A stretch of 64,000 bases of DNA, from contig NZ_AXWW01000036.1 of the NCBI RefSeq assembly GCF_000482865.1, positions 1 through 64,000 on the forward strand. Reading direction: 5' to 3'. Within the stretch, counting starts at the first letter, position 1; every line of letters starts with the position of its first letter. The DNA is from Actinokineospora inagensis DSM 44258. GTDB taxonomy: Bacteria; Actinomycetota; Actinomycetes; Mycobacteriales; Pseudonocardiaceae. This document shows, piece after piece, positions 30,216 through 55,254 of this stretch. The position numbers and the translations under genes are program-made. The notes beneath the pieces are model-generated. The model ran no database searches, had not been told where the DNA came from, and saw only the letters and a list, made by a program, of their open reading frames with translations.

Positions 30216-31289
30216 CTAGCCGAGGGCGGTTCGGTCCAGGGTGGCCAGGGTGGGGTGGCCGGTGAGGATCAGGGCTTCCTCGAGTTCTTCCCGCAGCAGC
30301 CGCAGGATGTGTTCGGCGCCGGGGGTGCCTGAGTGGGCCAGGCCCCAGAGGACGGGGCGGCCCACCAGGACGGCGGAGGCGCCCAGGGCGATGGCTTTGA
30401 GCACGTCACGGCCGCTGCGGATGCCGCCGTCGACGAGGACTGGGAGGCGGCCCGCGACCGCGTCGACGACCTCGGCGAGGGTGTCGGCGGTGGGGGGGAC
30501 GCCGTCGAGTTGGCGGCCGCCGTGGTTGGAGACGACGATGGCGTCGGTGCCGTGGTCGATGGCCTGGATGGCGTCGGTGCCGGTGAGGATTCCCTTCAGC
30601 ACCAGGGGGAGCCGGGTTCGGGCACGCAGCCAGGCGAGGTCTGACCAGGTGATCGTCGGGTCGAAGCGTTCGCGGGAGTGCCGTTCGATCGCGGACACGC
30701 CCACCTCGGCGACGTGGGCGGCGGCCATCAGTTCCGAGCTGAGGTTCACGGCGCGCACGTCGGGGGGCAGGGTGAAGCCGCTGCGCAGGTCGCGGGACCG
30801 GCGGGCGACCCTGGGGGCGTCCACGGTCAGCACCAAGGCGCGGTACCCGGCCTGTTCGGCGCGGGTGACCAGGTCGAGCAGCGCGTCCCGGTCGCGCAGC
30901 CAGTACAGTTGCATCCACAGTGGACCGGTCGCGGCGGCGGCGATCTCGGCCAGGTCGGTGCTGGCGAAGATGCTGGACACGAACAGGGCGCCCGCGGCAC
31001 CGGCGGCGCGGACCGTGGCCAACTCGCCCTCCGGGTGCACCAACCTGTGGTATGCCATCGGTGCGACGCCGATCGGCGCGGCCAGCGCAGAGCCGAGCAG
31101 TTCGGCGCGGGTGTCGCAGGCCGAGGCGTCGACCAGGACGCGGGGGCGCAGTCGGATCCGGTCCCAGGCGGCGGCGTTGGCGCGTAGTGTCCACTCCGCG
31201 CCGGAGCCGCCGTTGAGGTAGCCCAGCACGTCGGGTGCCAGGGTTGTCTCCGCGTTGGCCGCGTAGTCCGCGACGTCTACTGGTTTCAC
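30216..31289 (-). CDS. hmo: FMN-dependent 4-hydroxymandelate oxidase (Hmo-like)
   Basis: A 357-aa alpha-hydroxyacid oxidase of the glycolate oxidase/lactate-2-monooxygenase fold. Catalytic residues are visible: Tyr24 (VLGYLNGG), Tyr129 (QLYW), Lys232 (VLKGILTG), and His256 and Arg259 in SNHGGRQLDG. The phosphate-binding DGGIRSGRDVLKA lies near the C-terminus. The family oxidises 2-hydroxyacids to 2-oxoacids. Because hydroxymandelate synthase is encoded in the facing operon, the likely reaction is 4-hydroxymandelate to 4-hydroxybenzoylformate, as in 4-hydroxyphenylglycine pathways. It is divergent from the 31.6-40.1 kb operon and marks the left end of the cluster. Confidence 0.85.
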   Translation of the reverse strand: MKPVDVADYAANAETTLAPDVLGYLNGGSGAEWTLRANAAAWDRIRLRPRVLVDASACDTRAELLGSALAAPIGVAPMAYHRLVHPEGELATVRAAGAAGALFVSSIFASTDLAEIAAAATGPLWMQLYWLRDRDALLDLVTRAEQAGYRALVLTVDAPRVARRSRDLRSGFTLPPDVRAVNLSSELMAAAHVAEVGVSAIERHSRERFDPTITWSDLAWLRARTRLPLVLKGILTGTDAIQAIDHGTDAIVVSNHGGRQLDGVPPTADTLAEVVDAVAGRLPVLVDGGIRSGRDVLKAIALGASAVLVGRPVLWGLAHSGTPGAEHILRLLREELEEALILTGHPTLATLDRTALG

Positions 31290-31618
31290 CGTTGTCCGCC
31301 TTCACCGGTTTGGGCCGTTCGGGGCACTGGGCCGCGATATCGTGGCATCCGTTCACCGCATTTTCCACGGTTTCGGTTGTGTCGTCACCGAACGCGGTTT
31401 AGTTGACTTCTTTCGTGCGCGGCGAGTAGTCGTACGCACGGCCGGTTGCCCTGTGCGCACAGTGAGAACGCCTGGTAGTGGCCTTGCCTTAGCCGCCTCC
31501 GTTACGCCTTTCGGGCGACCTTGACTCTCGTTGAGCCGGTATGCGATTGTTTGGCGGGTCAGGGCGGGTAATGAACTCCCGATACGGCATTCGGCCTAGA
31601 CAAAATGTGAAGGAACCA
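31290..31618. promoter_or_regulatory. Divergent promoter region of the left half of the cluster
   Basis: The 329 bp between hmo (minus) and the first adenylating enzyme (plus) is locally less GC-rich than the genes. A candidate plus-strand promoter is TTGACT (31521-31526), 18 bp spacer, GATTGT (31545-31550); this is weak. No regulator gene or operator that I recognise is present. Confidence 0.35.
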
Positions 31619-33025
31619 ATGGCGGACGCAGATCTTCCGCTGGCAAATCGGCCTGCGGCAAACCCGGAATGGGTGGACCAGGTGCTGCTGGCAGGCGACG
31701 GTGCGGCCGGGTGCCTGCGCATGGATCGGCCGATCGACCGGGACGCGTTGCGCCGATCGGTGGCCGGGGCGGAGAGCCGGTTGCGCGCGGCCGGGCTCGT
31801 CGCGGGTGGGACTGTCGCATTGCGACTGCCGCCGTCGCTGACCTTCATCGCCTTCCTGTTGGCCGCGTGGCGGATCGGTGCCCAGGTCAGCCTGCTCGAC
31901 CACCGGCTCACCCAGCACGAGGTGGACGGCGCGCTGGACCGGATCGCCGCGCAGTACCTGGTCGAGGCCGCGGAGGTCAAGGGGCACAAGCTGTGCGGGT
32001 ACGCCGAGGTGGTGGCCGCGGTGTCCGCCAGGGAGGGTGGCCGCCCGGCCGACACGGCGCACGCGTTGGTGCAGTTCAGTTCCGGCTCGACCGGTGCGTC
32101 GAAGGTGATCGCTCGGACGTCCGATGACCTGATTGCCGAACTGGACCGTTACGACCGGCTGCCCGATTTCCCCCGCGCGGGGGAAAGGGTCGTCCTGCTC
32201 GCGTCCATCGTGCACGTGCTCGGCTTGGTCGGCGGCCTGCTCAACGCGTTGCACACCGGCGCCGAGCTCGTCTTCCCGCGCAGGCTCACCGCCGACGGCA
32301 TCCTCACCGCGGTCGCCGAGGCCGATTCGCCCGCGACGATCATCGGGGTTCCGTTCCACGCCGAACTGCTCGCCTCGGCCACCGATCCGCGCCCGCTTCC
32401 CCAACTGCGCCGGATGATCGTGGCCGGTGAGCTGGTCCGACCCGCCGTCCCGGTGCGGTTCCGGGAGCGCTTCGGCGTCCCGCTGGGCACCATGTACGGG
32501 ATGACCGAGGTCGGCGTGATCGCCACCGACCTCAACGGGGTGCTCTGGCCGTCGGTCGACCCCGCGCACGGGATGGACCTGCGCATCCGCGGCGGTGAGC
32601 TGTGGATCGCCCGGCCGGGGTCGCCGTACCTGGGCGAACAGGACCCGGGTCGGTTCGTCGACGGCTGGTTGTGCACCAAGGACGCCGCCGCGCTCGACCC
32701 GGGCACCGGGCTGTTGACCGTGTTGGGGCGGCTGGACTCGCAGGTGTCGATCGGCGGTCTGAAGGTCGACCTGACCGAGGTGGAGCAGGCGATCGCGGGC
32801 CTGGACTCGGTGCGCGAGGCCGTGGTGCTGCACGACGGGGGAGTGCAGGCGTACCTGAGCCTGGCCGACGGCGCGTCACTGGAGCAGGTTCGCGCCGCGA
32901 TCACCGAGACGTTGGCGCCGTTCAAGCGGCCGCGCCGGTTGGTCGTGCTGCCCGCGTTGCCCAGGACCGCCACCGGGAAGGTCGTCCGGGCCGCCGCCGT
33001 GCTCGCCGCCGCCGAGAACGGCTGA
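31619..33025 (+). CDS. AMP-dependent acyl/aryl-ACP ligase (ANL superfamily)
   Basis: A 468-aa adenylating enzyme. Motifs are A3 VQFSSGSTGASKVI, A5 GTMYGMTEVG, A7/A8 DGWLCTKDAAALD ... GRLDSQVSIGGLKVDLTEVE, and the A10 catalytic Lys in RTATGKVVRA. It is shorter than typical acyl-CoA ligases, like those that activate an aromatic or short acid and load a stand-alone carrier. ATG 31619 is preferred over upstream in-frame starts (31541) because GAAGGA precedes it. It is the first gene of the operon and is followed at once by two carrier proteins, which suggests it charges one of them. The substrate is not readable; a 4-hydroxyphenyl acid is a reasonable guess. Confidence 0.85.
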   Translation: MADADLPLANRPAANPEWVDQVLLAGDGAAGCLRMDRPIDRDALRRSVAGAESRLRAAGLVAGGTVALRLPPSLTFIAFLLAAWRIGAQVSLLDHRLTQHEVDGALDRIAAQYLVEAAEVKGHKLCGYAEVVAAVSAREGGRPADTAHALVQFSSGSTGASKVIARTSDDLIAELDRYDRLPDFPRAGERVVLLASIVHVLGLVGGLLNALHTGAELVFPRRLTADGILTAVAEADSPATIIGVPFHAELLASATDPRPLPQLRRMIVAGELVRPAVPVRFRERFGVPLGTMYGMTEVGVIATDLNGVLWPSVDPAHGMDLRIRGGELWIARPGSPYLGEQDPGRFVDGWLCTKDAAALDPGTGLLTVLGRLDSQVSIGGLKVDLTEVEQAIAGLDSVREAVVLHDGGVQAYLSLADGASLEQVRAAITETLAPFKRPRRLVVLPALPRTATGKVVRAAAVLAAAENG

Positions 33026-33075
33026 CGCCCGCGGCTTTGTTGCAGTGCAGGGAACGAGGACAGGGAGACAGGGCG

Positions 33076-33345
33076 ATGAAGGACCAGCTTCGCGAGTTCG
33101 TGCTCGACACGCTGCGCGAGATGAACTACGACGTCAGCGAGGTCACCGGGGACACCGACCTCGGCCCGGCGGGCCTCGACCTGGAGTCGCTGGCGCTGGC
33201 CGACCTCGCCGTGCAGATCGAGGACAAGTACCAGATCAAGTTCGGCGACGACGACATGGAGTCGCTGGCCCTGATGAACCTGGACGAGTTCGTCGACGCG
33301 CTGGCCGAGCGGCTGTCGACCACGTCCGGCGCCGACGCGTCCTGA
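33076..33345 (+). CDS. Acyl carrier protein
   Basis: An 89-aa four-helix carrier protein. The phosphopantetheine Ser lies in GLDLESLALADLA, where DLESL takes the place of the usual DSL. ATG 33076 is preceded by GGGAGACAGGG. It is the second gene of the operon and is followed 1 bp after its stop by a second carrier protein. It is probably activated by the PPTase at 47.1 kb. Confidence 0.92.
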   Translation: MKDQLREFVLDTLREMNYDVSEVTGDTDLGPAGLDLESLALADLAVQIEDKYQIKFGDDDMESLALMNLDEFVDALAERLSTTSGADAS

Positions 33346-33346
33346 G

Positions 33347-33595
33347 ATGGCCGCACCCGTCCCACCCGACCGCGCCGACGTGCTGGCGATGCTGTCCGGC
33401 TTCGGCGACCGCAGCACCGGCGAGGTCGGCGAGAACCTGGACTCCCTGGAGCTGACCTGGCTGATCGCCCAGGTCGAGCAGCGCTACGGGGTCGAACTGG
33501 ACCTGACCGACGAGGTGTTCGCGGGCATGGGCACGGTGACCGGCGCGGTAGACACCCTGGCGAAGGCGCTCGTCGAGGCCGAGCGCCATGACTGA
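33347..33595 (+). CDS. Acyl carrier protein, second of a pair
   Basis: An 82-aa carrier protein with the attachment Ser in ENLDSLELTWLIAQVE. It starts 1 bp after the first ACP and its 3' end overlaps the following ketosynthase by 8 bp (ATGACTGA), so it is translationally coupled. It differs strongly from the first ACP, which suggests the two carry different intermediates, for instance starter and extender units. Confidence 0.9.
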   Translation: MAAPVPPDRADVLAMLSGFGDRSTGEVGENLDSLELTWLIAQVEQRYGVELDLTDEVFAGMGTVTGAVDTLAKALVEAERHD

Positions 33596-34634
33596 GTCCG
33601 CCAGACCCGTCTACCTCTCCGGCGTCGCCGCGCGAACCGCTTTCGGCGACCACGCCGGACTGGTCGCCGGGGCCTTCGCCGGGGAACCGGCGTTCGCGCC
33701 GGTCACCCGGTTCAGCACGGTGGGCCGCCGCACCGAACACGCGGCGACCCTGCCCGGCTCACCCGACCTTGTCGATGAGTTGGTTGGCGTCATCGAGCGC
33801 GCGTGTCCGGGGCCGCGCGCGTCAGTGCCGCTGCTGCTCGCCGCGCACGCTGACGCCGGGAGCCGGGCACTGGCAAGGGAAGTGTCCGCACGGACCGGGG
33901 TCGCGGGCGTGTCGCGGGTCTACACCGGCGCGTGCGTGGCGGCGACCTCCGCGGTGGCCGACGCGGCGACGATGATCTCGACCGGTCGGGCCGACCGGGT
34001 CCTGGTCGCCGCCGGGTACCTGGTCGAGCCGTCGACCTTCGCGCTGTTCGACGCCGGGAGGGCGCTCTCGCGCGACGGTCGGCTGCGGCCGTTCAGCCTG
34101 GGCAGACAGGGGATGCTGCTCGGCGACGGTGTGGCGGCGGTGTTGTTGGAGGCACACAGCACGACACCGTTGGCGCGACTGGCCGGGTGGTCGCGGTCGG
34201 GAGACGCCTACCACGTGTGCAAGCCCAAGCCGGACGGCACCGGCCTGGCCCGAGCCATCACGGGTGCCGCTGATCGGGCCGGAGTGTCCATATCAGACAT
34301 CGACTACGTCAACGCGAACGGCACGGGAACAACGTTCAACGACGAGGCCGAGGTCGCCGCGCTGACGCTCGTCGGACTGGACCGGACGCCGGTCAGTTCG
34401 ACGAAATCGGTGCACGGCCACGCTTTGGAGGCGTCCGGGCTGGTCGAGCTGGTGACCACCGTCCTCGCCTCGGGCGAGGGTGTGCTGCCGGTCAACGCCA
34501 ACTACCTCGGTGCGGACCCGACGTGCGCGCTGGACCTGGTGGTCGAACCGCGGCGAGCGCGCATGGGGTACGCGCTCACCGTGAACGCGGCCTTCGGTGG
34601 CGCGAACACCGCCCTGCTACTGGAGGCGGCATGA
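33588..34634 (+). CDS. Short KAS II-like ketosynthase with Asn in place of the HGTGT His
   Basis: A 348-aa thiolase-fold ketosynthase, shorter than usual FabF (~410). The nucleophile is Cys116 in YTGACVAATSA. The first catalytic His position is Asn244, in YVNANGTGTTF instead of NAHGTGT. The second His is His278 in KSVHGHALEASG, and the C-terminal AAFGGANTALLLE is normal. Loss of this His usually weakens malonyl decarboxylation while acyl transfer can persist. So it may act as a non-elongating transacylase, or condense or cyclise by other chemistry. It is coupled to the ACP before it and to the Cys-less KS-like protein after it, possibly as a heterodimer. Confidence 0.88.
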   Translation: MTESARPVYLSGVAARTAFGDHAGLVAGAFAGEPAFAPVTRFSTVGRRTEHAATLPGSPDLVDELVGVIERACPGPRASVPLLLAAHADAGSRALAREVSARTGVAGVSRVYTGACVAATSAVADAATMISTGRADRVLVAAGYLVEPSTFALFDAGRALSRDGRLRPFSLGRQGMLLGDGVAAVLLEAHSTTPLARLAGWSRSGDAYHVCKPKPDGTGLARAITGAADRAGVSISDIDYVNANGTGTTFNDEAEVAALTLVGLDRTPVSSTKSVHGHALEASGLVELVTTVLASGEGVLPVNANYLGADPTCALDLVVEPRRARMGYALTVNAAFGGANTALLLEAA

Positions 34635-35254
34635 GCGCGCCATCCCTGGACAGCGGAAAAGCCTTGACCAGCAAGGTAATCCCGACGATCGAGGGTGTGA
34701 CCACAGTCGACGCGGCCGCACACCTGACACCTGCCGACGCTGTCGGAAACGTGCTAGCCTCGGCGCGGTGGCCGGAGTCCAGTGTGGACGCTGCTGGTGG
34801 TGACACCGTGGCTCCGGTTGCCGGGTTCGTCGTCTCATTGTTCAACCCGCTGGTGGCCGAGGTCGCCGAGCGGTGCCTGCGGGCCTACTACGGGCAACCC
34901 CCGGCGGCCCGCGGCGAGCGGACGGCGATCGTGCTCGCCAGCGTCAACGGTGACGTGACCAGTGCCGACGTGGTCGCCGCCGCGGTGGCCGCCGGTGTGC
35001 GGGTGCAGCCGTTGCTGTTCTTCCAGTCCAACCCGAACGCGGTACTGGGGCACGTGGCCGCGCGCTGGGGCCTGGCCGGGCCGGTGGTCTGCACCAGTCC
35101 GACCGGGGACCCGACGGCCGACGCGGCGGCGTGCGCGGAGTTGCTGTTCGCCGCGGGCGATGCCGACGCGGCCCTGCTGATAACCGCGGACATCGCGGGT
35201 GATACCGGTGACCGGGCGGAGGCCGTCCTGGTCGGAGCGAGGGAGAGGTCATGA
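34631..35254 (+). CDS. Truncated ketosynthase-like (chain-length-factor-like) protein without nucleophile
   Basis: A 207-aa protein resembling the N-terminal half of ketosynthases (Ketoacyl-synt_2 type): VLASVNGDVTSADVVAAAV, FFQSNPNAVLGHVAARWGL, GPVVCTSPTGDPTADAAACA, then DADAALLITADI. Where active KSs have the nucleophilic Cys it reads TGDP, and it lacks the whole C-terminal half with the two His. It overlaps the preceding KS by ATGA and the following ligase by ATGA. It probably forms a heterodimer with the short KS at 33.6 kb, as chain-length factors do; this is inferred from size, fold and coupling. Confidence 0.7.
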   Translation: MSAPSLDSGKALTSKVIPTIEGVTTVDAAAHLTPADAVGNVLASARWPESSVDAAGGDTVAPVAGFVVSLFNPLVAEVAERCLRAYYGQPPAARGERTAIVLASVNGDVTSADVVAAAVAAGVRVQPLLFFQSNPNAVLGHVAARWGLAGPVVCTSPTGDPTADAAACAELLFAAGDADAALLITADIAGDTGDRAEAVLVGARERS

Positions 35255-36864
35255 CCGCCACGAGCACCCGGGCCAAGCTGGCGCGTGACCCGGATCTGGG
35301 CGCGGGCAACGTGTTGACCACGTTGGTCGCGGCGAACGGCGACCTGGACCGCCGAACCTTCACCTTCGACCGCCCGGTCGACGACATCCCGGCCTGGACC
35401 GCGCTCACCGTCCGCCAGTTGGACGATCGCGTCCGGGCCAGGGCCGCCGCGTTGCACGCGCTGGGCATCGGCACGCGTGACCCGGTCGCGATCACCGCTA
35501 CCAGCGTGGCCGACAACATCCTCACCTTCCTCGCGCTGGCCCGCCTCGGCGCGATCCCGGCGCTGATCAACGCCAAGCTCGCCCCGGAGATCACCGTCCG
35601 CTACGTCGAGCGGCTGCGACCGGTCGGTGTCCTCGCCGACGCGACCCGCCGCGAAGCCCTCGCGCCGCACGGCCTGAACCTGTTGCCCCCCATCGAGTCG
35701 CTCGGCGCGGGCGATCCGGCGCAGGCGCCCGAGCCCTACCGGTTCCACCAGGACGACCCGGTCGCGATCACCCATTCGTCCGGCACGACCGGCGTGCCCA
35801 AGGCGGTGCTGCACTCGCACTCCAGCCTGTTCGCCGCCAACCGGCACCGGCTGCGGATGCCCAAGGCGCAGGGCACCGACCGGCTGCTGTCCGCGCTCCC
35901 CGCCCCGCACGCCGCCACCCTCATCGCGCTCAACCTGGCGCTGGCCAGTGAGAGCGAGCTGCTGGCGCTCTCCACGCAGACCGGTCCGTCGGTGGTGGAC
36001 GCGATCGAGCAGTGGCGTCCCGGCGGTGTGCTCGGTTTCGCGGCGACCTGGTCGGAGATGGCCAAGACCGATCTGCGCGGCCGCGACCTCGACTCGGTCG
36101 CGCTGTGGTGGAACACCGGTGACTGCGCGCACGAGGCGCACATCCGCAGGCTCATCTCCCTCGGCTACCGCGAGGTGTCCACAAAGGAGGGACGGGTCCG
36201 CAAGCCGGGGTCGGCGTTCATCGACGGGCTGGGCTCCAGCGAGATGGGCCACTCGCACTTCTTCATCACGCACACCACCGAGACCAACCGCTATGGGCGC
36301 TGCATCGGCCGCCCGCACGCCTTCGCCGAACCCGTCGTGCTCGGCCCGGACGGCAACGAGTTGCCCTACGGCGAAGTAGGCGAGTTGGGTACGAAGTCGC
36401 CCACGCTGTCCCTGGGCTACTGGAACGACTCGGTGACCACCTACCGCACCCGCGTGCGCGGCTACTTCCTCACCGGCGACCTCGTCTACCGCGACGAGGA
36501 GGGCTACTTCTACCACGTCGACCGGCTCGTGGACTCCGTCGATCTCGGCGACGGCAAGCGGTTGCACACGGCGCTGTCCGAGGAGCGCGTCCTCAACGCG
36601 TGCCCCGATGTCGCCGATTGCACTGTGGTCGCCGTGCGCACGGACGACGGTGTTGTCACCGACGTCCTGGTGCAGCTCGACGCGGCCGGTGATCCCGACG
36701 CCGATCGCACCGAGGCCATACGAACAGCTCTGGGACCGGATGTGGCGGCCACGCTCCGCGAGGTCGTCGTGGTCGACGAGGACCGGATTCCGCTGGGCCC
36801 CACCGGGAAGGTCCGCAAGGTCGCGCTGCGCGAGCAGTACCTGCAGAACCTGGGTGCGAGATGA
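35251..36864 (+). CDS. AMP-dependent synthetase/ligase (second ANL enzyme)
   Basis: A 537-aa adenylating enzyme with A3 THSSGTTGVPKAVLHSHSS, A5 DGLGSSEMGHS, A7 GYFLTGDLVYRDEEGYFYHV, and the A10 Lys in PLGPTGKVRKVAL. It overlaps its neighbours by 4 bp on both sides. It is only distantly similar to the ligase at 31.6 kb. In clusters that have CreE/CreD, an ANL protein of this kind (CreM in cremeomycin) is an ATP-dependent diazotase using nitrite, so this gene is a candidate for the nitrite-using step. An ordinary acyl-CoA/ACP ligase role is equally possible. Confidence 0.8.
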   Translation: MTATSTRAKLARDPDLGAGNVLTTLVAANGDLDRRTFTFDRPVDDIPAWTALTVRQLDDRVRARAAALHALGIGTRDPVAITATSVADNILTFLALARLGAIPALINAKLAPEITVRYVERLRPVGVLADATRREALAPHGLNLLPPIESLGAGDPAQAPEPYRFHQDDPVAITHSSGTTGVPKAVLHSHSSLFAANRHRLRMPKAQGTDRLLSALPAPHAATLIALNLALASESELLALSTQTGPSVVDAIEQWRPGGVLGFAATWSEMAKTDLRGRDLDSVALWWNTGDCAHEAHIRRLISLGYREVSTKEGRVRKPGSAFIDGLGSSEMGHSHFFITHTTETNRYGRCIGRPHAFAEPVVLGPDGNELPYGEVGELGTKSPTLSLGYWNDSVTTYRTRVRGYFLTGDLVYRDEEGYFYHVDRLVDSVDLGDGKRLHTALSEERVLNACPDVADCTVVAVRTDDGVVTDVLVQLDAAGDPDADRTEAIRTALGPDVAATLREVVVVDEDRIPLGPTGKVRKVALREQYLQNLGAR

Positions 36865-38132
36865 GACCCGCGGCGGCCATCACCGGCATCGGGCTGGTCA
36901 CCCCGGTGGGCCGCAAGCCCGCCGAGGTGTTCGACGCCTTGTGCGCCGGGCGGTCCGGGGTGATCACCCCGCCGCCGGGTCACCCGCTGGCCGGGCTGCT
37001 GGACGCGGCGGGCATCGCCCCGGACATCGACCCGACCGAGGTGATGGACATCAAGTCCGCCAAGGCCGTCGACCGGTTCGTGTTGCAGGCCATGGCCGCG
37101 GCCGACGACGCCATCGCCGACGCCCGCATCACGATCGGCACCGACGTCGATCCCGAGCGGGTCGCGGTGGTCGTCTCGACCGGTGGCGCGGGCCTGGAGA
37201 CCTACGAGCACTTCGCCGCGCAGCGCTGGGAACGTGGCCGCGCGAAGGTGAGCCCGTACCTGTTGCCCGGGATGCTGGCCAACATGGCCGCCGCCCGGAT
37301 CGCGATCAAGTACGGCATCCGCGGCCACAGCGCGTGCATCGCCACCGCCTGCGCGGCGGGCGCCCAGTCGATCGCCGAGGCGCTGCGGCTCATCCGCGGC
37401 GGCGAGGCGGACGTGGTGGTGTGCGGCGGGAGCGACACCGCGTTGCACCCGACGGTGGCGTCCGCGTTCGCCAACGCCTGGGCGCTCGCCCGGGGTTGGG
37501 GCGATGACCCGACGGCCGCGAGCAGGCCGTTCGACAAGCGCCGCAACGGTTTCGTGCTCGGCGAGGGCGCGGGCATCCTGATCGTGGAGCGGTCTGACTT
37601 CGCCGACGCGCGGGGCGCCGCGAGCTACGCCGGTCTGCTCGGCTGGGCGGTCAGCACCGACGCCCACCACCCGACCACCCCCCGACCGGACGGCGCGGGC
37701 GCCGCGTCGGCGATGCGCCGGGCGGTGGCGGACGCGGACCTCACACCGTCCGATGTGGACTACATCAACGCGCACGGTACGTCCACCCCACTCGGCGACG
37801 CCGCGGAGGCCGCCGCCGTGCGCTCGGTGTTCGGCGACGCGAGCCCGCCGGTGAGCTCGATCAAGGCGCTCACCGGGCACATGCTCGGTGGTTCCGGCGC
37901 GGTCGAGGCCGCCGTGACCGCGTTGTCGGTGGCGGGCGGTGTGCTGGCCCCCACGCACAACCTCGACGACCCGGACCCGGAATGCGCGCTCGACCACGTG
38001 CGCGCCGCGCCCCGCCGTGGTCCGGTCCGCGCCGCCCTGTCGAACTCGTTCGCCTTCGGCGGCCACAACGTCAGCCTGCTGATCGGTCAGCCAGGCACCC
38101 GTCTGACCCGCACCACCACACCAGCGGTCTGA
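36861..38132 (+). CDS. Beta-ketoacyl-ACP synthase II-type, complete active site
   Basis: A 423-aa FabF-like condensing enzyme. Cys164 (CIATACAAGAQS), His305 (YINAHGTSTPLGD), Lys335 and His340 (SIKALTGHMLGGSG) form the normal Cys-His-His set, and SNSFAFGGHNVSLLI ends the fold. It starts MRPAAAITGIGLVTPVG. It is the only ketosynthase of the cluster with a fully conventional elongating active site, so it is the best candidate for a Claisen extension from malonyl-ACP. No ketoreductase or dehydratase is encoded nearby, so a beta-keto product would stay unreduced unless enzymes from elsewhere help. Confidence 0.93.
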   Translation: MRPAAAITGIGLVTPVGRKPAEVFDALCAGRSGVITPPPGHPLAGLLDAAGIAPDIDPTEVMDIKSAKAVDRFVLQAMAAADDAIADARITIGTDVDPERVAVVVSTGGAGLETYEHFAAQRWERGRAKVSPYLLPGMLANMAAARIAIKYGIRGHSACIATACAAGAQSIAEALRLIRGGEADVVVCGGSDTALHPTVASAFANAWALARGWGDDPTAASRPFDKRRNGFVLGEGAGILIVERSDFADARGAASYAGLLGWAVSTDAHHPTTPRPDGAGAASAMRRAVADADLTPSDVDYINAHGTSTPLGDAAEAAAVRSVFGDASPPVSSIKALTGHMLGGSGAVEAAVTALSVAGGVLAPTHNLDDPDPECALDHVRAAPRRGPVRAALSNSFAFGGHNVSLLIGQPGTRLTRTTTPAV

Positions 38133-48600: not shown

Positions 48601-49561
48601 CGCCCTGGGGTTCTACCGGACCATGCGGTTCATCCGCCGGTTCGAGGAACGCGCGATCGAGCTGGTCCGCGCGGGGGAGATCTTCAGCGGCATCCACCCG
48701 TGCATCGGTCAGGAAGCCGTGGCAGCAGGGGCCTGCGGCGCGCTCGACCCCGATGACATCGTGTTGTCCAGCCACCGGGGCCACGGGCACCTGCTGGCCA
48801 AGGGCTGCGACCCGGGGCGCGTGCTGGCCGAGATGGCCGGTCGGGTCACCGGGATCGACAAGGGTCGCGGTGGCTCGTTCCACCCGTCGGACTTCAGCGC
48901 GGGCGTGTACAACTCGACCGGCACCGTCGGGCACGGCGCGGGCATCGCGGCCGGGATCGCCTGGGCGGCGGCGAAGGCGGGGGAGCCGAAGGTCGTGCTG
49001 AGCTTCTTCGGCGACGGCGCGGTCACCCAGGGCGCGCTCCTCGAAGGTTTCAACCTGGCGGGCCTCTGGCAGCTCCCGGTGGTGTACATTTGTGAGAACA
49101 ACCGTTACGCCACAACGCTTCCGGTCGAGACGGCGGTAGCCGGGACGATCACCGGCCGCGGTGAGGCGTTCGGCATCCCGTCGTCCGATGTGGACGGTCA
49201 GGACGTCGAGGTGGTGCACGCCGCGGTCGCCGAGGCGGTGGCCAGGGCGCGCTCCGGTGGCGGTCCCTCGCTGCTGGTGATGGACACGTACCGCTACCAC
49301 GGCCACCACACCTTCGAGATGCTGGTGCGGCTGCGCTACCGGGAGCAGGCCGAGATCGACGCCTGGAAGGCCCGCGACCCGCTGGACATCCAGGCCGCCC
49401 GGATCGACCCGGCCGACCGGGACCGGGTGGACGCGGCGGTCGAGGCGGAGCTGGACGAGGTCGTCCGGTTCGCCGTGGACAGTCCCCGGCCGGACCCGGC
49501 CGACGCGATGGACCACTACTACGCCGACGGTTTCCGACCGAGACCCGGCGTCTCGCTGTAG
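48593..49561 (+). CDS. TPP-dependent dehydrogenase E1 component, alpha subunit
   Basis: A 322-aa subunit of the pyruvate/acetoin/branched-chain 2-oxoacid dehydrogenase type. The TPP/Mg motif is FFGDGAVTQGALLEGFNLAG ... VYICENNRY (GDG at 140-142, ending with Asn-Asn). SSHRGHGHLLAKG and NSTGTVGHGAG are family motifs. ATG 48593 overlaps the previous stop by 8 bp. It decarboxylates a 2-oxoacid and passes the acyl or aldehyde unit on. No E2 or E3 gene is present, so the acceptor may be a carrier protein or CoA. 4-Hydroxybenzoylformate from HmaS/Hmo is a logical but unproven substrate. Confidence 0.9.
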   Translation: MPDALGFYRTMRFIRRFEERAIELVRAGEIFSGIHPCIGQEAVAAGACGALDPDDIVLSSHRGHGHLLAKGCDPGRVLAEMAGRVTGIDKGRGGSFHPSDFSAGVYNSTGTVGHGAGIAAGIAWAAAKAGEPKVVLSFFGDGAVTQGALLEGFNLAGLWQLPVVYICENNRYATTLPVETAVAGTITGRGEAFGIPSSDVDGQDVEVVHAAVAEAVARARSGGGPSLLVMDTYRYHGHHTFEMLVRLRYREQAEIDAWKARDPLDIQAARIDPADRDRVDAAVEAELDEVVRFAVDSPRPDPADAMDHYYADGFRPRPGVSL

Positions 49562-49578: not shown

Positions 49579-50556
49579 GTGCCGAAGCTGTCCTACCTCA
49601 AGGCGCTCAACCGCGCGCTCGGTGACGAGATGACCCGCGACGAGTCCGTCTTCGTGCTCGGCGAGGACGTGAACTTCGCGCTCACCAACGTCACCGCCGG
49701 GTTCCTGAAGAAGTTCGGCCCGGACCGGGTGCTCGAGGTGCCGCTGACCGAGCAGGGCTTCACCAACTTCGCCACCGGCGCGGCGATGGCCGGGCGCAGG
49801 CCGGTGATCGAGTTCCAGATCCCGTTCCTGCTGCTGCTGGTGTTCGAGCAGATCACCAACCAGGCCAACAAGTTCCTGATGATGAGTGGTGGCCAGCGCA
49901 GCGTCCCGGTCACCTACCTGATGCCCGCCGCGGGCTGGCGGGCCGGGTGGGGCGCGCAGCACTCCGACCAGCCGTACAGCATGTTCGCGCACATGGGCGT
50001 CAAGACCGTGCTGCCCGCGACCCCCACCGACGCCTACGGCCTGCTGACCACCGCGATCCGCGATGACGACCCGGTGGTGTTCTTCGGCCCGCTCGCCGCG
50101 CTGACGGTGCGCGAGATCGTCGACTACGAGGACCTGCGGCCGATCCCGTTGGGCAGCGGTCGAATCCACCGGTCGGGCACCGACGTCACGGTTGTCGCGT
50201 TAGGACACCTGGTGCACGAGGCGCTGCAGGTCGCCGAGGACCTGGCCGAGGAGGCGTCGGTCGAGGTGTGGGACCCGCGCTCGGTGTACCCGTTCGACTG
50301 GGCCGGGTTGGCCGAGTCGGTGTCGCGCACCGGTCGACTGGTCGTGTTCGACGACTCCAACCGCTCCTGCGGGATGGGCGCGGAGATCCTGGCGACCGCC
50401 GTCGAGGAGATGCACCTGACCGCGCCGCCCAAGCGGGTCACCCGGCCCGACGGCGCGATCGTCGGCGCGGTGCCGGAACTGGACGCGGTGTTGCAACCGA
50501 CCAAGGAGCAGTTGGCGGAGGCCATCCGCACGGTGCTCAAGAGTCCGGGCTGGTGA
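49579..50556 (+). CDS. TPP-dependent dehydrogenase E1 component, beta subunit
   Basis: A 325-aa transketolase-like partner of the alpha subunit: VLGEDVNFALTNVTAGFLKK, VPLTEQGFTNFATGAAMAGRRPVIE and QHSDQPYSMFAHMGVKTVLP are conserved family blocks, and the C-terminal domain has VWDPRSVYPFDW. The start is GTG 49579 with GGAGAGGAG upstream. It contains a TTA codon (50200-50202), a possible bldA control point. Similar E1 pairs without E2 occur in secondary metabolism, for example in phenylglycine (PglB/PglC) clusters. Confidence 0.9.
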   Translation: MPKLSYLKALNRALGDEMTRDESVFVLGEDVNFALTNVTAGFLKKFGPDRVLEVPLTEQGFTNFATGAAMAGRRPVIEFQIPFLLLLVFEQITNQANKFLMMSGGQRSVPVTYLMPAAGWRAGWGAQHSDQPYSMFAHMGVKTVLPATPTDAYGLLTTAIRDDDPVVFFGPLAALTVREIVDYEDLRPIPLGSGRIHRSGTDVTVVALGHLVHEALQVAEDLAEEASVEVWDPRSVYPFDWAGLAESVSRTGRLVVFDDSNRSCGMGAEILATAVEEMHLTAPPKRVTRPDGAIVGAVPELDAVLQPTKEQLAEAIRTVLKSPGW

Positions 50557-50559: not shown

Positions 50560-51960
50560 GTGGAGGTGGAGCGCGTCCCCGTTCCCTTCCGCGGCCACGG
50601 CAGTGGTGAGGCGGGGCTGACCTGGGGTCAGATCGGTATCTGGCAGGCCATCGCGCGGTCCGGCGAGTCGCGCACCATGGGCGGCGTGGTCAAACTGCCG
50701 CCCGGCGTGACCGTCGAGCAGGTGGCGGCCACGTTCAGCGTGATCATCGGCAGGCACCAGGCGCTGCGCACCCGGCTGGTGTTCACCGATGGGCGGCCGC
50801 GGCAGTCCCTGGTGGAGGCCGGTGAGATCACCCTGGAGGTGCTCGACGCGGGCGGGTCCGACCCGGCCGATGTCGCCGCCGCCGTGCAGGAGCGGTACGC
50901 GAGCGTGCCGTTCGACTACGAGCACGAGTTCCCGGTGCGGGCCGCCCTGGTCCGCGTCGGCGCGGAGATCACGCACATGGTCGCGGTCTACCTGCACCTG
51001 TCGCTGGACGCGGGCGGGCTGGAGGTGCTGATCCGCGAGCTCGGGTCCGACCCGGCGACGCTGCCGCCGGTCACCGCCGTCCAGCCGCTGGAGCAGGCCC
51101 GCAGCCAGGAGGAGCCCTCGGCGTTGCGGCAGTCGGCGAACTCGTTGCGGTACCTGGACAACGTGCTGCGCAGCGTGTCGCCGCTGCGGTTCGGCGAGCC
51201 GCGCGAACTGCGCGACCCGACGTTTCGGATGGTTCGCTACCGCTCGCCCGCCACCCGGCTGGCGGTCGACGCGATCGCCCGGCGCGGCGGGGTCAGCACC
51301 TCGTCGGTGCTGCTGGCCTGTTTCGCGGTCGCGTTGGCCCGAGCCGGGGCGAGCAACCCGGTCATGGCGATGCTGATGGTCAGCAACCGGTTCCGGCCGG
51401 GTTTCGCCGAGTCGGTCAGCACGATCGTGCAGATCAGCCCCTACCTGATCGACGTCGCCGACATCACCCTCGGTGACGCGGTCGCCAGGGCGGCGCGCAG
51501 CACGATGAACGCCTACAAGCACGCCTACTACGACCCGGACGCGCAGGACGACGTCGTCGACCAGGTGTTCGCCGATCGCGGCGAGCCCGTCGACTTCTCC
51601 TGCTTCTTCAACGACCGGCGCAAGTCCGACCGCGCGCCCGGCGCGGGACCCGAGCCGACGGCCGACTCGCTGGCCTCGGCGCTGTCCCGGTCCGAGACGC
51701 ACTGGGAGGACGAGCCCGGCATGCCGCGGCAGAAGCTCTACCTGCACGTGGACGACCCGCTCGACACGATCGAGTTCACCATGTCGGTGGACACCCGCTA
51801 CTTCACCGCGGCGGAGACCGAGGCCGTCGTGCGCGGCATCGAGTCCGTCGCGGTGCGCGCCGCCCTCGACCCGGACACGCCGACCGGCGTGCGGGCCGAG
51901 CCCAAGCTCCCGGCCACCGCCGGAGCCGGGGCGGACACTGGCGAGGGAGGTGCCCGATGA
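50560..51960 (+). CDS. Free-standing condensation-domain protein 2
   Basis: A 466-aa paralogue of the protein at 43.6 kb. Shared blocks are LTWGQIGIWQA, RHQALRTRLVF, FDYEHEFPVRAAL, VYLHLSLDAGGLE (His146 and Asp150 retained, first His position Leu145), YKHAYYDPDAQ and FFNDRRKS. It is the last full gene of the operon. It starts with GTG 3 bp after the E1 beta stop. It probably forms an amide or ester between carrier-bound acyl and aminoacyl groups. Its stop overlaps a 5-codon reading frame (MIEIK, 51957-51974), which is described as a finding. Confidence 0.83.
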   Translation: MEVERVPVPFRGHGSGEAGLTWGQIGIWQAIARSGESRTMGGVVKLPPGVTVEQVAATFSVIIGRHQALRTRLVFTDGRPRQSLVEAGEITLEVLDAGGSDPADVAAAVQERYASVPFDYEHEFPVRAALVRVGAEITHMVAVYLHLSLDAGGLEVLIRELGSDPATLPPVTAVQPLEQARSQEEPSALRQSANSLRYLDNVLRSVSPLRFGEPRELRDPTFRMVRYRSPATRLAVDAIARRGGVSTSSVLLACFAVALARAGASNPVMAMLMVSNRFRPGFAESVSTIVQISPYLIDVADITLGDAVARAARSTMNAYKHAYYDPDAQDDVVDQVFADRGEPVDFSCFFNDRRKSDRAPGAGPEPTADSLASALSRSETHWEDEPGMPRQKLYLHVDDPLDTIEFTMSVDTRYFTAAETEAVVRGIESVAVRAALDPDTPTGVRAEPKLPATAGAGADTGEGGAR

Positions 51961-52031: not shown

Positions 52032-52064
52032 GCGGGGGCGGGTCCTCCCGGGACCCGCCCCCGC
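52032..52064 (+). terminator. Second strong hairpin before the flavoprotein gene
   Basis: Perfect 14-bp arms GCGGGGGCGGGTCC / GGACCCGCCCCCGC with a 5-nt loop, ending 27 bp before the flavoprotein start. With the preceding hairpin it probably ends the operon or attenuates read-through into the creE/creD-like genes. Confidence 0.7.
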
Positions 52065-52091
52065 CTCCACACACACCCCGGGAACAAGCTC

Positions 52092-53891
52092 ATGCACAGG
52101 TTCGGCCAGGAGGTCTGCGTCGTCGGAGCGGGACCGCGCGGGCTCAGCGCGGTCGAGCGGCTGTGCGCCAACGCCACCGGTCCGCTGGTGGTGCACCTGG
52201 TGGACCCGCACGCCGGTCGCGGTGGCCGGGTGTGGTCGACCGGGCAGCCCGCGTCGCTGCTGATGAACACCATCGCCTGCCAGGTGTCGATGTTCACCGA
52301 CGCCTCGGTCGACTGTGCGGGCCCGATCCGGCCGGGGCCGTCGCTCTACGAGTGGGCGCTCTCGGCTGCCGTGCCCGCCGTGGTCGCCGCCGAGGCACGG
52401 GCGCTGACCCCGAACTCTTACCCCTCCCGGGCGTTCTATGGGCACTACCTGGACTGGTTCCTCGACGAGTTGTGCCGAACGCCCGGCGTGGAGATCCGGC
52501 TTCACCGCGTCAGTGCGGCGGATATCGCCGACGCGGACGACGGTCAACGCGTGACGCTGTCCGACGGGACTGTCTTGGCCGGGTTGTCCGCTGTCGTACT
52601 GGCGCAAGGACACGTCGACATGCCTCTTGGCGCCGTCGAGTCCCGGTTGGCCGATTACGCCGCCGAGCACGGCTTGGGCTATGTGCCGCCCACCAACCCG
52701 GCTGAGGCGGACCTCGCGACCATCATGCCCGGTGAGGTCATCGCGCTGCGTGGGCTCGGGCTGTCCTTCTTCGACTACCTGGCGCTGCTCACGTCCGACC
52801 GGGGCGGCCAGTTCAAAGAGCGCGCGGACGGGACGCTGGCGTACCTGCCGTCTGGGCAAGAGCCCGTCATCATCACCGGCTCCCGGCGCGGCATCCCGTA
52901 CCACGCGCGCGGGGAGAACGAGAAGGGCGCGTACGGCAGGCACGAGCCGGTGTTCCTCACCCTGGACGTGATCGCCGAGCTCCGGTCTCGGCCCACGGTG
53001 TCCTTCCTCGACGACATCTGGCCGCTGATCGCCCGCGAGGTCGAACTCGTCTACTACCGCACACTGCTCGGTCCACGCGGCGACGAGTTCGCGGACCGGT
53101 TCATCGCGGGTGAGCCGGGACTGCCCGCCGCCTTCGAGGTGCCGGTCTGGGACTGGGAGCGGGTGGCGCGACCCGATGGTGGCCGCACGTTCCGCTCGCC
53201 CGAGGACTTCGACGAGTGGCTGCTGGACCTGCTGCGCGCGAATGTGCCCGGTGGCAACGTGACCAACCCGGTCAAGGCCGCTCTTGACGTCCTGCGCGAC
53301 CTGCGCAACGAGGTCCGGTTGGCCGTCGACCACGGTGGGGTAACCGGCAGCTCTTACCGCGACGACCTTGACTCCTGGTACACCCCACTCAACGCTTATC
53401 TGTCCATCGGACCGCCCGCACGGCGGGTGGCGGAACTCGTCGCGCTGATCGAGGCCGAGGTGGTCAGGGTGGTCGGCCCGGGTATGCGGGTGGACCTGGC
53501 CGAGCGCGGTTACCTCGTCAGCTCACCTCGCGTGGGCGGCTCCGCGGTGCTGTGCACGACCCTGGTCGAGGCCCGACTACCGGAAGTCGACATCCGCCGC
53601 ACATCAGACCCTCTTATCGCCTCGATGCTCAGCCGCGGCGACTGTGTGCCGTATCGCATCCCTGATCCCGATGGGCCTGTCGAGACCGGTGGGCTCGCCG
53701 TGACACCTCGCCCGTACCGGCTGGTCCGCGCCGATGGCACCCCCCACCCCCGGCGATTCGGATACGGTGTTCCTACCGAGTCGGTGCACTGGGTGACCGC
53801 CGCGGGGATCCGTCCCGGCGTGAACTCGATGATCCTCGCCGACGCGGACGCCATCGCCAGGGCGGCGTTGGCGACGACCAGCACCGCGTGA
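52092..53891 (+). CDS. creE: FAD/NAD(P)-binding monooxygenase, CreE-like (nitrosuccinate synthase)
   Basis: A 599-aa flavoprotein of the NAD_binding_9 type. The Rossmann motif is VCVVGAGPRGLSAVERL, followed by VDPHAGRGGRVWSTGQPASL and LLMNTIACQVSMFTD. Family size, opening motifs and above all the adjacent fumarase-superfamily lyase match the CreE/FzmM enzymes of the aspartate-nitrosuccinate pathway. There the flavoprotein oxidises the amino group of L-aspartate to give nitrosuccinate. I cannot verify substrate residues without an alignment; other N-hydroxylating flavoproteins of this superfamily are the alternative. It has its own start after two hairpins and lies 34 bp before the lyase. Confidence 0.72.
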   Translation: MHRFGQEVCVVGAGPRGLSAVERLCANATGPLVVHLVDPHAGRGGRVWSTGQPASLLMNTIACQVSMFTDASVDCAGPIRPGPSLYEWALSAAVPAVVAAEARALTPNSYPSRAFYGHYLDWFLDELCRTPGVEIRLHRVSAADIADADDGQRVTLSDGTVLAGLSAVVLAQGHVDMPLGAVESRLADYAAEHGLGYVPPTNPAEADLATIMPGEVIALRGLGLSFFDYLALLTSDRGGQFKERADGTLAYLPSGQEPVIITGSRRGIPYHARGENEKGAYGRHEPVFLTLDVIAELRSRPTVSFLDDIWPLIAREVELVYYRTLLGPRGDEFADRFIAGEPGLPAAFEVPVWDWERVARPDGGRTFRSPEDFDEWLLDLLRANVPGGNVTNPVKAALDVLRDLRNEVRLAVDHGGVTGSSYRDDLDSWYTPLNAYLSIGPPARRVAELVALIEAEVVRVVGPGMRVDLAERGYLVSSPRVGGSAVLCTTLVEARLPEVDIRRTSDPLIASMLSRGDCVPYRIPDPDGPVETGGLAVTPRPYRLVRADGTPHPRRFGYGVPTESVHWVTAAGIRPGVNSMILADADAIARAALATTSTA

Positions 53892-53925
53892 CCCCCGGGG
53901 TCGCGCGACCGGCGTAAGGAGCCCC

Positions 53926-55254
53926 GTGACCGGTACCGACTCCGGCCTGCTCGCCCCGGTGTGGGCGGGCTCGACCGCCGCCGACCTGGTGACCGACGAG
54001 GCCTGGGTCGCCGCCATGGTCGAGGTGGAGGTCGCGCTGGCCCGCGCCCAGGCCAAGCTCGGCGTCATCCCGGAGGCCGCCGCCGCGTCCATCGCCGCGG
54101 CCGCCGTGGACATCGACGTCGTCGACCTGGCCGTCAAGTCCCGGGGCGGCGCCAACCCGATCGTGGCTTTCGTCACCGCGTTCACCGCGTGCGTGGCCGA
54201 AGACGCCCGCGAGTACGTCCACCGCGGCAGCACCAGCCAGGACATCCTGGACTCCGCCGCGATGCTGCTCACCACCCGCGTGTTCGCCGCCGTCGAAACG
54301 GACCTGCTGCGCGTCGCCGCCGCGTTGGCCCGGTTGGCCGACGAGCACCGGGGTTCGGTGATGGCCGGGCGCACACTGACCCAGCACGCCGTCCCGGTGA
54401 CGTTCGGCCTGAAGGCCGCGGGCTGGCTGACCGTCGTGCTGGACGCCGTGTCCCGGCTCCGCGCGGTCGTGTTACCGGCCCAACTCGGCGGCGCGGCGGG
54501 CACCCTCGCGTCCTATGTGGAGTATGCGGGCGACCCGGCGCACGGCCTGGTGCTGAGCGCGGAGTTCGCCCGGCAGTTGGACCTGGTGGAAGCCGTCGTC
54601 CCCTGGCACGCCCTGCGGACCCCGTACGCCGACATCGGTCACGCAGGCGTGGTGGTGACCGGCGCCCTGGGCAAGTTCGCCCTCGACGTGCAGGGCATGT
54701 CCCGCACCGAGGTCGGCGAGGTCGTCGAACCCTCCGCCGAGGGTCGCGGCGTGTCCTCGGCCATGCCGCAGAAGCGAAACCCGGTGCTGGCCACCCTCGT
54801 CATGGCCGCCGCCCGCCAGGTCCCGCTGTACGCCACCGTCCTGGCCCAGTCCATGATCGCCGAAGACGAACGCGCCCCCGGCGCCTGGCACGCCGAATGG
54901 CAACCCCTCCGCGAACTCCTCCGCACCGTCGGCGGCGCCGCCGCGACCGCCGCCGAACTCGCCGAGGGCCTGGAGGTCTTCCCCGCTCGCTTGTCGGCCA
55001 ACCTGTCCCTCACCGGCGGCACCATCGTCTCCGAACGCCTCAACGTGGCGTTGGCCCCCATCCTCGGCAAGGTCGAAGCCAAGAAGCTGCTGGCCAGACT
55101 CTCCCGCGAACCGTCCTTTTCGGACGCCCTGCGCGCCGCCCCCGAACTCGCCTCCGTTGACGTGGAAGCCCTTCTGGACCCCGCGGGCTACCTCGGCGCC
55201 ACCGACGCCCTCGTCAACCGCGCCCTGGACCGCCACCGCAGGCTCCTCCCATGA
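53926..55254 (+). CDS. creD: Fumarase/aspartase-superfamily lyase, CreD-like (nitrosuccinate lyase)
   Basis: A 442-aa lyase. The superfamily blocks are RGSTSQDILDSA, TLTQHAVPVTFGLK and the catalytic loop RGVSSAMPQKRNPVLA. The overall closest type is the adenylosuccinate lyase/3-carboxymuconate cycloisomerase branch. In the CreE/CreD pathway this enzyme eliminates nitrite from nitrosuccinate, leaving fumarate. The start is GTG 53926, with AAGGAG upstream. It has one TTA codon (54472). Read alone it could be a cycloisomerase, but no protocatechuate-pathway genes are near and the CreE-like partner is adjacent. Its stop overlaps the DUF1992 gene start (ATGA). Confidence 0.75.
   Translation: MTGTDSGLLAPVWAGSTAADLVTDEAWVAAMVEVEVALARAQAKLGVIPEAAAASIAAAAVDIDVVDLAVKSRGGANPIVAFVTAFTACVAEDAREYVHRGSTSQDILDSAAMLLTTRVFAAVETDLLRVAAALARLADEHRGSVMAGRTLTQHAVPVTFGLKAAGWLTVVLDAVSRLRAVVLPAQLGGAAGTLASYVEYAGDPAHGLVLSAEFARQLDLVEAVVPWHALRTPYADIGHAGVVVTGALGKFALDVQGMSRTEVGEVVEPSAEGRGVSSAMPQKRNPVLATLVMAAARQVPLYATVLAQSMIAEDERAPGAWHAEWQPLRELLRTVGGAAATAAELAEGLEVFPARLSANLSLTGGTIVSERLNVALAPILGKVEAKKLLARLSREPSFSDALRAAPELASVDVEALLDPAGYLGATDALVNRALDRHRRLLP

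Follow-up and report, generated by a model that had tools for sequence, protein, structure and literature searches.

A conserved composite gene cluster of Actinokineospora combining hydroxymandelate-type enzymes, free-standing assembly proteins and a predicted member of the diazotase family

What might free-standing ketosynthases, condensation proteins, carriers and an amino acid:carrier ligase assemble when they lie beside hydroxymandelate-type enzymes and a candidate nitrite supply, and do all of these belong to one pathway? The questions are raised by a run of genes in a 64,000-nucleotide stretch of Actinokineospora inagensis DSM 44258 (contig NZ_AXWW01000036.1, positions 1 to 64,000; hereafter ‘the window’), carried by our contig C31 (88,304 bases; genome 7.28 Mb). 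A sequence-only reading had outlined a cluster at 30216–55254, from the oxidase gene Hmo on the minus strand at the left to the end of CreD at the right, and had proposed that an aryl-acyl and an aminoacyl unit are joined on carriers with nitrite-derived nitrogen–nitrogen chemistry. The borders proved exact, our analysis supports a single cluster with aryl precursor enzymes and an amino acid:carrier ligase, and the case for nitrite chemistry is strengthened by the assignment of the ligase ANL2 to a family of nitrite-activating diazotases. On balance we favour the view that this is a composite cluster in which a 4-hydroxyphenylglycine unit would be linked, on carriers, with a second amino acid, and nitrosated with self-made nitrite.

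Codon-usage gene calling, frame analysis and Pfam together give the following 25 genes, from Hmo (30216) to the end of CreD (55254); the functions named are predictions from homology.

30216–31289, minus strand: Hmo, 4-hydroxymandelate oxidase-like FMN enzyme, left border (FMN_dh, E 5e-131; 4-hydroxymandelate oxidase 5zzp, E 1e-91, outscored by two L-lactate oxidase sequences, 7f22 and 7f20)
31541–33025 (alternative start 31673), plus strand: ANL1, acyl-carrier-protein ligase in the avaA1/cmaA1 position (AMP-binding, E 1e-35; weak likeness to oxalyl-CoA and benzoate-CoA ligases)
33076–33345, plus strand: CPa, discrete carrier with GLDLESL (PP-binding, 23.7 bits, above cut-off; present in 8/8 Actinokineospora relatives)
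33347–33595, plus strand: CP1, discrete carrier with NLDSL (PP-binding, E 0.0027, 18.4 bits, below the cut-off of 20.8; present in 8/8 relatives)
33588–34634, plus strand: KSa, type II ketosynthase of FabF/AmcF type, NGTGT for HGTGT (Pfam, NCBIfam, residue alignment)
34631–35254, plus strand: KSlike, half-size partner resembling a chain length factor (CLF) or cyclisation factor (NCBIfam AmcG, E 3e-8, 33 bits against a cut-off of 80; Pfam ketosynthase matches below cut-off)
35251–36864, plus strand: ANL2, nitrite-activating diazotase family, AvaA6/Tri17 (NF058622 AvaA6, E 4e-141, 471 bits against a cut-off of 975; Tri17 8tf7/9bq0, E 1.5e-93; tree)
36861–38132, plus strand: KSb, intact FabF-like ketosynthase (NF005589, 428 bits, cut-off 387 passed; fabF, 443 bits, cut-off 494 missed; Cys and both His kept)
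38164–39177, plus strand: HmaS, 4-hydroxymandelate synthase (top PDB match 2r5v, E 1e-97, ahead of the 4-hydroxyphenylpyruvate dioxygenases (HPPDs) listed)
39174–40085, plus strand: PhyH-type Fe(II)/2-oxoglutarate oxygenase (PhyH, E 7e-23; co-occurs with HmaS, Hmo and the aminotransferase discussed below)
40240–41004, minus strand: ABC-2 permease (ABC2_membrane, E 1e-29)
41016–41969, minus strand: DrrA-type ABC ATPase (TIGR01188, 344 bits, cut-off 312 passed)
41966–43144, minus strand: MGT-family glycosyltransferase, GT (EryCIII-like_C, 71 bits, and UDPGT, 55.6 bits, both above cut-off; TIGR01426, 155 bits, below the cut-off of 260)
43141–43404, minus strand: CPc, discrete carrier with LRFDSI (PP-binding, 20.2 bits, just below 20.8; present in 8/8 relatives)
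43576–44943, plus strand: C1, stand-alone condensation protein with HxxxDA (Condensation, E 2e-15; motif in 9/9)
44940–45872, plus strand: KSIII, Cys-His-His (ACP_syn_III_C, E 4e-16; residues in 11/11)
45914–46198, plus strand: CP2, discrete carrier with LGLSSA (PP-binding, 38.1 bits)
46195–47058, plus strand: KSIIIdead, KSIII-fold protein without catalytic residues (predicted structure, alignment)
47037–47735 (alternative start 47052), plus strand: Sfp-type phosphopantetheinyl transferase, PPTase (ACPS, E 9e-12)
47719–48600, plus strand: aaCP, amino acid:[carrier protein] ligase (4h2w, E 6e-56; 3mey, 2e-55; NF005479, 283 bits, below the cut-off of 357)
48593–49561, plus strand: E1 alpha, thiamine diphosphate-dependent dehydrogenase subunit (E1_dh, E 4e-64)
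49579–50556, plus strand: E1 beta (Transketolase_C, E 5e-30; Transket_pyr, 8e-26)
50560–51960, plus strand: C2, stand-alone condensation protein with HLxxDAGG (Condensation, E 7e-22)
52092–53891, plus strand: CreE, L-aspartate N-hydroxylase (8cp2, E 9e-177, 592 bits)
53926–55254, plus strand: CreD, nitrosuccinate lyase, right border (NF052556, E 4e-163, 543 bits, below the cut-off of 650)

All protein classes named in the sequence-only reading were found by Pfam, NCBIfam and gene calling. The Pfam families comprise FMN_dh, AMP-binding (twice), ketosynthase, HPPD-like, PhyH, ABC-2, ABC ATPase and Condensation (twice), and further KSIII, ACPS, the class II tRNA-synthetase core, E1 alpha and beta, FAD-NAD(P) for CreE, Lyase_1 for CreD and the UDPGT/EryCIII-type GT. 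Two of the four carriers score above the PP-binding cut-off of 20.8 bits (23.7 and 38.1) and two slightly below it (18.4 and 20.2); CPa and CPc, which lie beyond the reading frames initially scanned, were recovered by the codon-usage gene caller. As had been claimed, neither Pfam nor NCBIfam reports a modular polyketide synthase or nonribosomal peptide synthetase (NRPS), a ketoreductase or a dehydratase for the cluster proteins, save for weak whole-protein ketosynthase and condensation matches to multidomain models.

That these genes belong together is indicated by their conservation. With aaCP as query across 390 genomes of the family, close orthologues (71–100% identity) were found in 9 of 16 Actinokineospora genomes, the source genome included; since the best 5–6 candidates per genome were scored for aaCP, KSIII and PhyH, and the best 4 for CreD, all genome counts given here are lower bounds. 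Seven of the eight relatives keep all 25 genes in order and strand, and the eighth, A. spheciospongiae EG49 (G018), keeps 23 in the same order and strand, with CreE and CreD missing. Within the genus, KSIII and PhyH are confined, at the thresholds used, to the same nine genomes and are lacking in the other seven. Because order and strand recur in this way, we exclude a chance neighbourhood. A DUF1992 gene adjoining the right border (55251–55721) was tried as a further member and dropped: its match lies ~1.2 kb off in G016, and in G007, G011 and G018 the cluster has no such match nearby.

The cluster is not restricted to Actinokineospora. Searching named genomes with the KSIII alignment yielded 11 loci, seven from Actinokineospora and one each from Kitasatospora mediocidica, a Corynebacteriales metagenome-assembled genome (MAG), Streptosporangiaceae NEAU-GS5 and Solihabitans fulvus. 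In all, the cluster family spans Actinokineospora, Kitasatospora, a Streptosporangiaceae strain, the MAG and three further genera (g5, g7, g24), with the right half only in Solihabitans; linkage in the MAG is not established because its entry in the locus comparison joins four separate contigs. KSIII (E <= 1e-50) occurs in at least 80 and PhyH (E <= 1e-80) in at least 32 of the 390 family genomes, and 27 of the 32 have the two on the same contig, no more than 15 kb apart. Nine of the 27 are Actinokineospora; seven of the other 18 were examined and annotated over 40 kb each. All seven stretches hold ANL1, CP1, ANL2, PhyH, E1 alpha/beta, KSIII, KSIIIdead and an alpha/beta-hydrolase, six each hold HmaS, the aminotransferase (AT) and KSb, five GT, four Hmo, and three KSa and KSlike. 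ANL2 is present in 21/21 examined loci having ANL1. PhyH without linked KSIII was found in G252, G056, G224, G368 and G371, in the last four at 55–61%; in G056, G224 and G371 its neighbourhood yielded no call of HmaS, Hmo or ANL2, and G252 carries a minimal stand-alone four-gene cassette HmaS-Hmo-PhyH-AT.

Which aryl unit could the left half supply? HmaS, Hmo and HpgT constitute the 4-hydroxyphenylglycine pathway of glycopeptide antibiotics, and the top match of our HmaS, 2r5v (PCZA361.1), we take to be an HmaS. The third activity has its candidate elsewhere in the genome: a second related cluster (C1:137504–150714) comprises Hmo, ANL1, CPa, CP1, KSa, KSlike, ANL2, KSb, HmaS, PhyH and CreE and is accompanied by AT at 133818–135125 (Aminotran_1_2). 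A tblastn search for AT and the alpha/beta-hydrolase gave no trace of either in the window; as AT is present at C1, the second locus probably supplies the missing step. Since CreD and E1 were conversely not found in 35 kb around the C1 cluster, the two loci may complement each other. AT orthologues (61–100%) occur in 9/9 bearers of the cluster, and the seven non-bearers have only homologues of 34–36%. The AT match lies 66, 87 and 47 bases from Hmo in G007, G011 and G016 and overlaps it by 8 in G018; in the other five bearers, including the source genome, AT is separated from the main cluster and has a second PhyH and a second ANL2 no more than ~10 kb away. Further AT homologues (49–53%) reside elsewhere in G007 and K. 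mediocidica. Taken together, HmaS, Hmo and the associated AT argue for 4-hydroxyphenylglycine as the probable aryl unit.

The stretch C1:133818–150714 (L093, L094) also holds an alpha/beta-hydrolase and, as judged by eye, a FabI-like short-chain dehydrogenase/reductase and a hotdog-like protein. Left of Hmo in the window, a gap of ~2.4 kb (27774–30215) reaches to a GH18 protein without a called gene; several relatives have AT or the hydrolase on that side.

The second conspicuous component is ANL2. Both ligases previously grouped as ANL enzymes are indeed AMP-binding proteins, but ANL2 is assigned by homology to the nitrite-activating diazotase family (AvaA6/Tri17). Its top PDB matches are 8ztz/9ijf, Tri17 (8tf7 and 9bq0, as identified in PMC11705231) and 9xb8, with 298–380 bits for the four top sequences compared with 100 for FadD13, the best ordinary fatty-acyl ligase. 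It thus clears the ordinary acyl ligases but misses the AvaA6 cut-off (471 against 975 bits) and is not AvaA6 itself. The segment GRCIGRP is common to ANL2, 8ztz and Tri17 and missing from FadD13, and the segment NTGDCAHEAHIR is shared with 8ztz and in part with Tri17, FadD13 being unaligned there. Nine other ANL2 homologues from these genomes (34–39% identity) have a dehydroquinate synthase (DHQS) gene nearby in five cases (L131–L135) and CreE in four (L131, L132, L133, L139), hence one or the other in 6/9; neither was found in 12–14 kb around the remaining three (L136–L138). In an unrooted tree the 20 ANL2 proteins of HmaS clusters are split from these nine and the outgroup with a support of 0.992.

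The run ANL1-CPa-CP1-KSa-KSlike-ANL2 (31541–36864), in which KSlike and CP1 fall below Pfam cut-offs, reproduces the order of avaA1-A6/cmaA1-A6, given in Table 1 of PMC10777205 as acyl-ACP ligase, acyl carrier protein (ACP), ACP, ketosynthase, CLF and diazotase. According to that paper, 72 of 134 ava-type clusters are without the CreE/CreD pair, and its mining demanded genes for 3-amino-4-hydroxybenzoate (3,4-AHBA). The present family would thus probably have been missed. None of the 25 genes is a 3,4-AHBA synthase gene (AvaH/AvaI), AvaI-type genes having been looked for within the cluster and not genome-wide. PF01959, of which AvaH is presumably a member, is absent from 5/9 bearers, the source genome among them, and a 3,4-AHBA starter was dismissed on that account. 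No unassigned NAD(P) reductase that could represent the A7 denitrification enzyme was seen among the 25 genes in a search made without an A7 sequence.

CreE and CreD stand side by side, with 592 bits to 8cp2 (identity after PMC10404684) and 543 bits to the nitrosuccinate lyase model. In the source genome the CreD of the window is the only match better than 1e-60. A family-wide CreD count at E 1e-60 (at least 316 of 390 genomes) was set aside as uninformative, because it probably also captures 3-carboxymuconate cycloisomerases, whose model CreD matches.

Diazotase homologues occur in further settings. L131–L133 (G019, G008, G013) are loci of AHBA type in which CreE accompanies a diazotase homologue, no CreD being called in 14–19 kb; each of these genomes has a single CreD match better than 1e-60, inside the cluster studied here. 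At L139 (G007:C13:158000–172000), CreE (53%) and a diazotase homologue (34%) lie near an aminotransferase and, by eye, aminodeoxychorismate synthase-/chorismate mutase-like genes; this is perhaps another orphan diazo-type locus.

How, then, could two units be joined? The ketosynthases had been described as having altered active sites, which applies to KSa, the half-size KSlike, KSIII and KSIIIdead but not to KSb, which is intact and FabF-like. In KSa, HGTGT is changed to NGTGT in 9/9 Actinokineospora sequences, with the Cys kept. The usual KSIII triad is Cys-His-Asn; in the alignment KSIII keeps Cys and His and has a His in place of the Asn in 11/11 sequences. KSIIIdead has lost the His in all 11, and its Cys site is Ala in the source genome, Ser in nine and Cys in one (NEAU-GS5). 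A PDB sequence search gave no match for KSIIIdead; its AlphaFold model, compared by Foldseek, adopts a KSIII fold with AbyA1 as top match (E 3.6e-9) and ChlB3 and PqsBC among the matches. Since the mean predicted local distance difference test score (76.6) and the TM-scores (near 0.55; 0.41–0.57 among the 50 matches listed) are modest, we claim only the fold class. PqsBC is a KSIII with an inactive KSIII partner, and we infer from model and residues that KSIII may pair with KSIIIdead in a similar way.

C1 and C2 keep HxxxDA in 9/9 each. To the right of the window (C31:69809–71530), another stand-alone condensation protein, the third (Condensation, 75.9 bits), adjoins a LuxR-family regulator (GerE, 58.8 bits), and C2-like proteins (29–36%) are also found right of the cluster in G007, G008, G010, G013, G018 and G019. 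The ligase aaCP aligns with Bll0957 over residues 12–285 (E 6e-56), that is, over a truncated class II aminoacyl-tRNA synthetase core. A joining module in a different setting is seen at L051–L052 (G221), a distinct cluster with aaCP (42%), KSIII (39–40%), CP2 (40%), KSIIIdead (~31%) and a condensation protein, and no HmaS or ANL2 in 40 kb. Elsewhere in the window (9266–11089), an AurF-type N-oxygenase adjoins a leucine carboxyl methyltransferase-like gene; AurF homologues (25–29%) likewise adjoin distant amino acid:carrier ligases in L016, L021 and L032.

The pathway that we propose, in its reactions as in their order, would run as follows. HmaS and Hmo would convert 4-hydroxyphenylpyruvate into 4-hydroxybenzoylformate, from which AT, encoded here with the second cluster on contig C1, would form 4-hydroxyphenylglycine; PhyH may oxidise one of these aryl precursors, and E1 alpha/beta may decarboxylate the 2-oxo acid for separate use. 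ANL1 would load the aryl (amino) acid on CPa/CP1 in the manner of ava/cma, and KSa-KSlike together with KSb could add a short unit at most, left unreduced because no ketoreductase is encoded. The second amino acid would be loaded on CP2 by aaCP, and both units joined by KSIII and its inactive partner together with C1 and C2. CreE/CreD would release nitrite from aspartate, and ANL2 would activate it with ATP and nitrosate an amine, possibly of a carrier-bound and possibly of a released intermediate; the nitrogen–nitrogen bond might be kept in the product or lost as N2. Finally, GT would add a sugar and the DrrAB-type exporter export the product. A more specific version, which we offer tentatively and consider rather unlikely as a whole, has ANL2 acting as an ATP-dependent diazotase on the alpha-amine of a 4-hydroxyphenylglycine-type intermediate, held on a carrier or extended to a ketone, to yield an alpha-diazo carbonyl on the assembly line.

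A number of findings weigh against the favoured pathway. No HpgT model is found among the NCBIfam matches listed for AT (25 of 52), and ANL2, CreD, aaCP and GT all score below curated NCBIfam cut-offs. The seven 40-kb stretches from other genera contain no aaCP, CreE or CreD (nor PPTase), and aaCP was also not found in the stretches examined of K. mediocidica and NEAU-GS5. Genome-wide, neither A. spheciospongiae nor K. mediocidica (G390) has a CreD orthologue (best matches 28–32%), and CreE was not found in the stretches around their clusters. CreE/CreD are thus dispensable or replaceable, which weakens an obligatory aspartate-derived nitrite step, though 72 of 134 ava-type clusters lack the pair too. 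The ANL diazotases described in the literature consulted act on aromatic amines, hydrazines or hydrazones, and Tri17 also on cyclic secondary amines; no gene for an aromatic-amine or hydrazone precursor was seen in the cluster. KSa-KSlike are absent in 4/7 other-genus clusters, and an extension step is therefore not obligatory. Finally, the halves are separable: the left module occurs without the right at C1:137504–150714 of the source genome (G000) and in a second K. mediocidica copy (C4, near 272–286 kb), and the right without the left in 21 kb of Solihabitans. Hence they are modules, usually linked, of a composite cluster.

This separability goes halfway towards a possibility, raised as a refutation in the sequence-only reading, that an ava-like aryl cluster (left) and a cluster of condensation, KSIII and aaCP genes (right) merely adjoin and make separate products. 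The solitary left and right modules speak for such a view, but the modules are interleaved, E1 alpha/beta belonging to the right half in this cluster and in Solihabitans and standing beside PhyH in both Kitasatospora copies, the order is identical in 9/9 bearers, and linkage of PhyH and KSIII within 15 kb in 27/32 genomes extends to rearranged clusters; we therefore regard two unrelated pathways as highly improbable. A weightier alternative, still unlikely in our judgement, is that ANL2 was recruited from the diazotase family to adenylate acyl or aminoacyl substrates, that CreE/CreD serve another locus, and that the product is an aryl-aminoacyl conjugate without nitrogen–nitrogen chemistry. 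It would accommodate the second CreE of the source genome at C1, the lack of CreE/CreD in 1/9 Actinokineospora clusters and in the other-genus stretches, and the split of the ANL2 clade from nine homologues of which several are AHBA-linked; set against it are the constant company of ANL1 and ANL2, the segments shared with 8ztz and Tri17, and the many ava-type clusters that lack the pair as well.

Compatible with the favoured pathway, as a variant of it, is a route in which ANL1 loads 4-hydroxybenzoylformate itself and KSa-KSlike lengthen it into an aryl dioxo acid, with AT entering at a later stage and nitrite used to nitrosate an activated carbon or a later amine. Its precedent is cispentacin, where, according to PMC10698177, AmcF-AmcG perform a single C2 elongation on a 2-oxoacyl carrier made by AmcH, which loads 2-oxoglutarate. 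KSlike is closest to AmcG and ANL1 weakly resembles oxalyl-CoA synthetase; but the AmcG match lies below cut-off, and the four other-genus clusters without KSa-KSlike all keep ANL1 and ANL2, and three of them (all but G062) AT as well. We consider this variant less likely than not.

The gene set had been called undescribed. Neither a matching cluster nor a product was found among the matches listed from the open-access papers searched, and none of the papers listed there combines hydroxyphenylglycine with a diazotase; the set is not one of a kind, however, but belongs to a cluster family of several genera. It unites three systems not seen together in those papers: HmaS-Hmo, a nitrite-activating ANL enzyme with an ava-type run of ketosynthase and CLF, and aaCP with free-standing condensation and KSIII proteins. 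The cluster offers a concrete case in which to ask whether ANL diazotases can form diazo groups on the amines of amino acids, and it may mean a new route to reactive nitrogen–nitrogen groups; if the alpha-diazo version held, clusters of this kind would be a source, widely distributed in the actinobacterial family, of diazo metabolites or their derivatives that have so far gone unseen. Culture-collection strains in which to look are A. terrae DSM 44260, A. diospyrosa DSM 44255, A. globicatena DSM 44256 and A. enzanensis DSM 44649.

Among known systems, the cluster resembles the glycopeptide 4-hydroxyphenylglycine pathway in the HmaS structure as top match, the strong Hmo match and the AT linked in relatives, whereas here no NRPS is encoded, AT lies outside the window without an HpgT model match, and PhyH stands alongside. 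With the ava (avenalumic acid) and cma (p-coumaric acid) clusters it shares the order ligase-ACP-ACP-ketosynthase-CLF-diazotase and the CreE/CreD pair; in contrast, HmaS/Hmo stand in for the AvaH-type gene, no ketoreductase is present (as in cma), ANL2 forms a separate clade, and HmaS/Hmo/PhyH/E1, KSb, the KSIII pair, the condensation proteins, the aaCP ligase, GT and the ABC exporter are added. ANL2 is homologous over its full length to Tri17, CreM and AvaA6 but scores far below the AvaA6 cut-off and is without visible aromatic amine or hydrazone genes. KSa and its half-size partner resemble AmcF-AmcG of cispentacin, with only 33 bits to AmcG and different neighbouring genes. KSIIIdead has a KSIII fold as in PqsBC, entries of which are among its structural matches, yet AbyA1 and ChlB3 rank highest and the likeness is one of predicted fold and residues. 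Finally, aaCP is homologous over its core to the Bll0957 amino acid:[carrier protein] ligases and, unlike Bll0957, is located inside a biosynthetic cluster.

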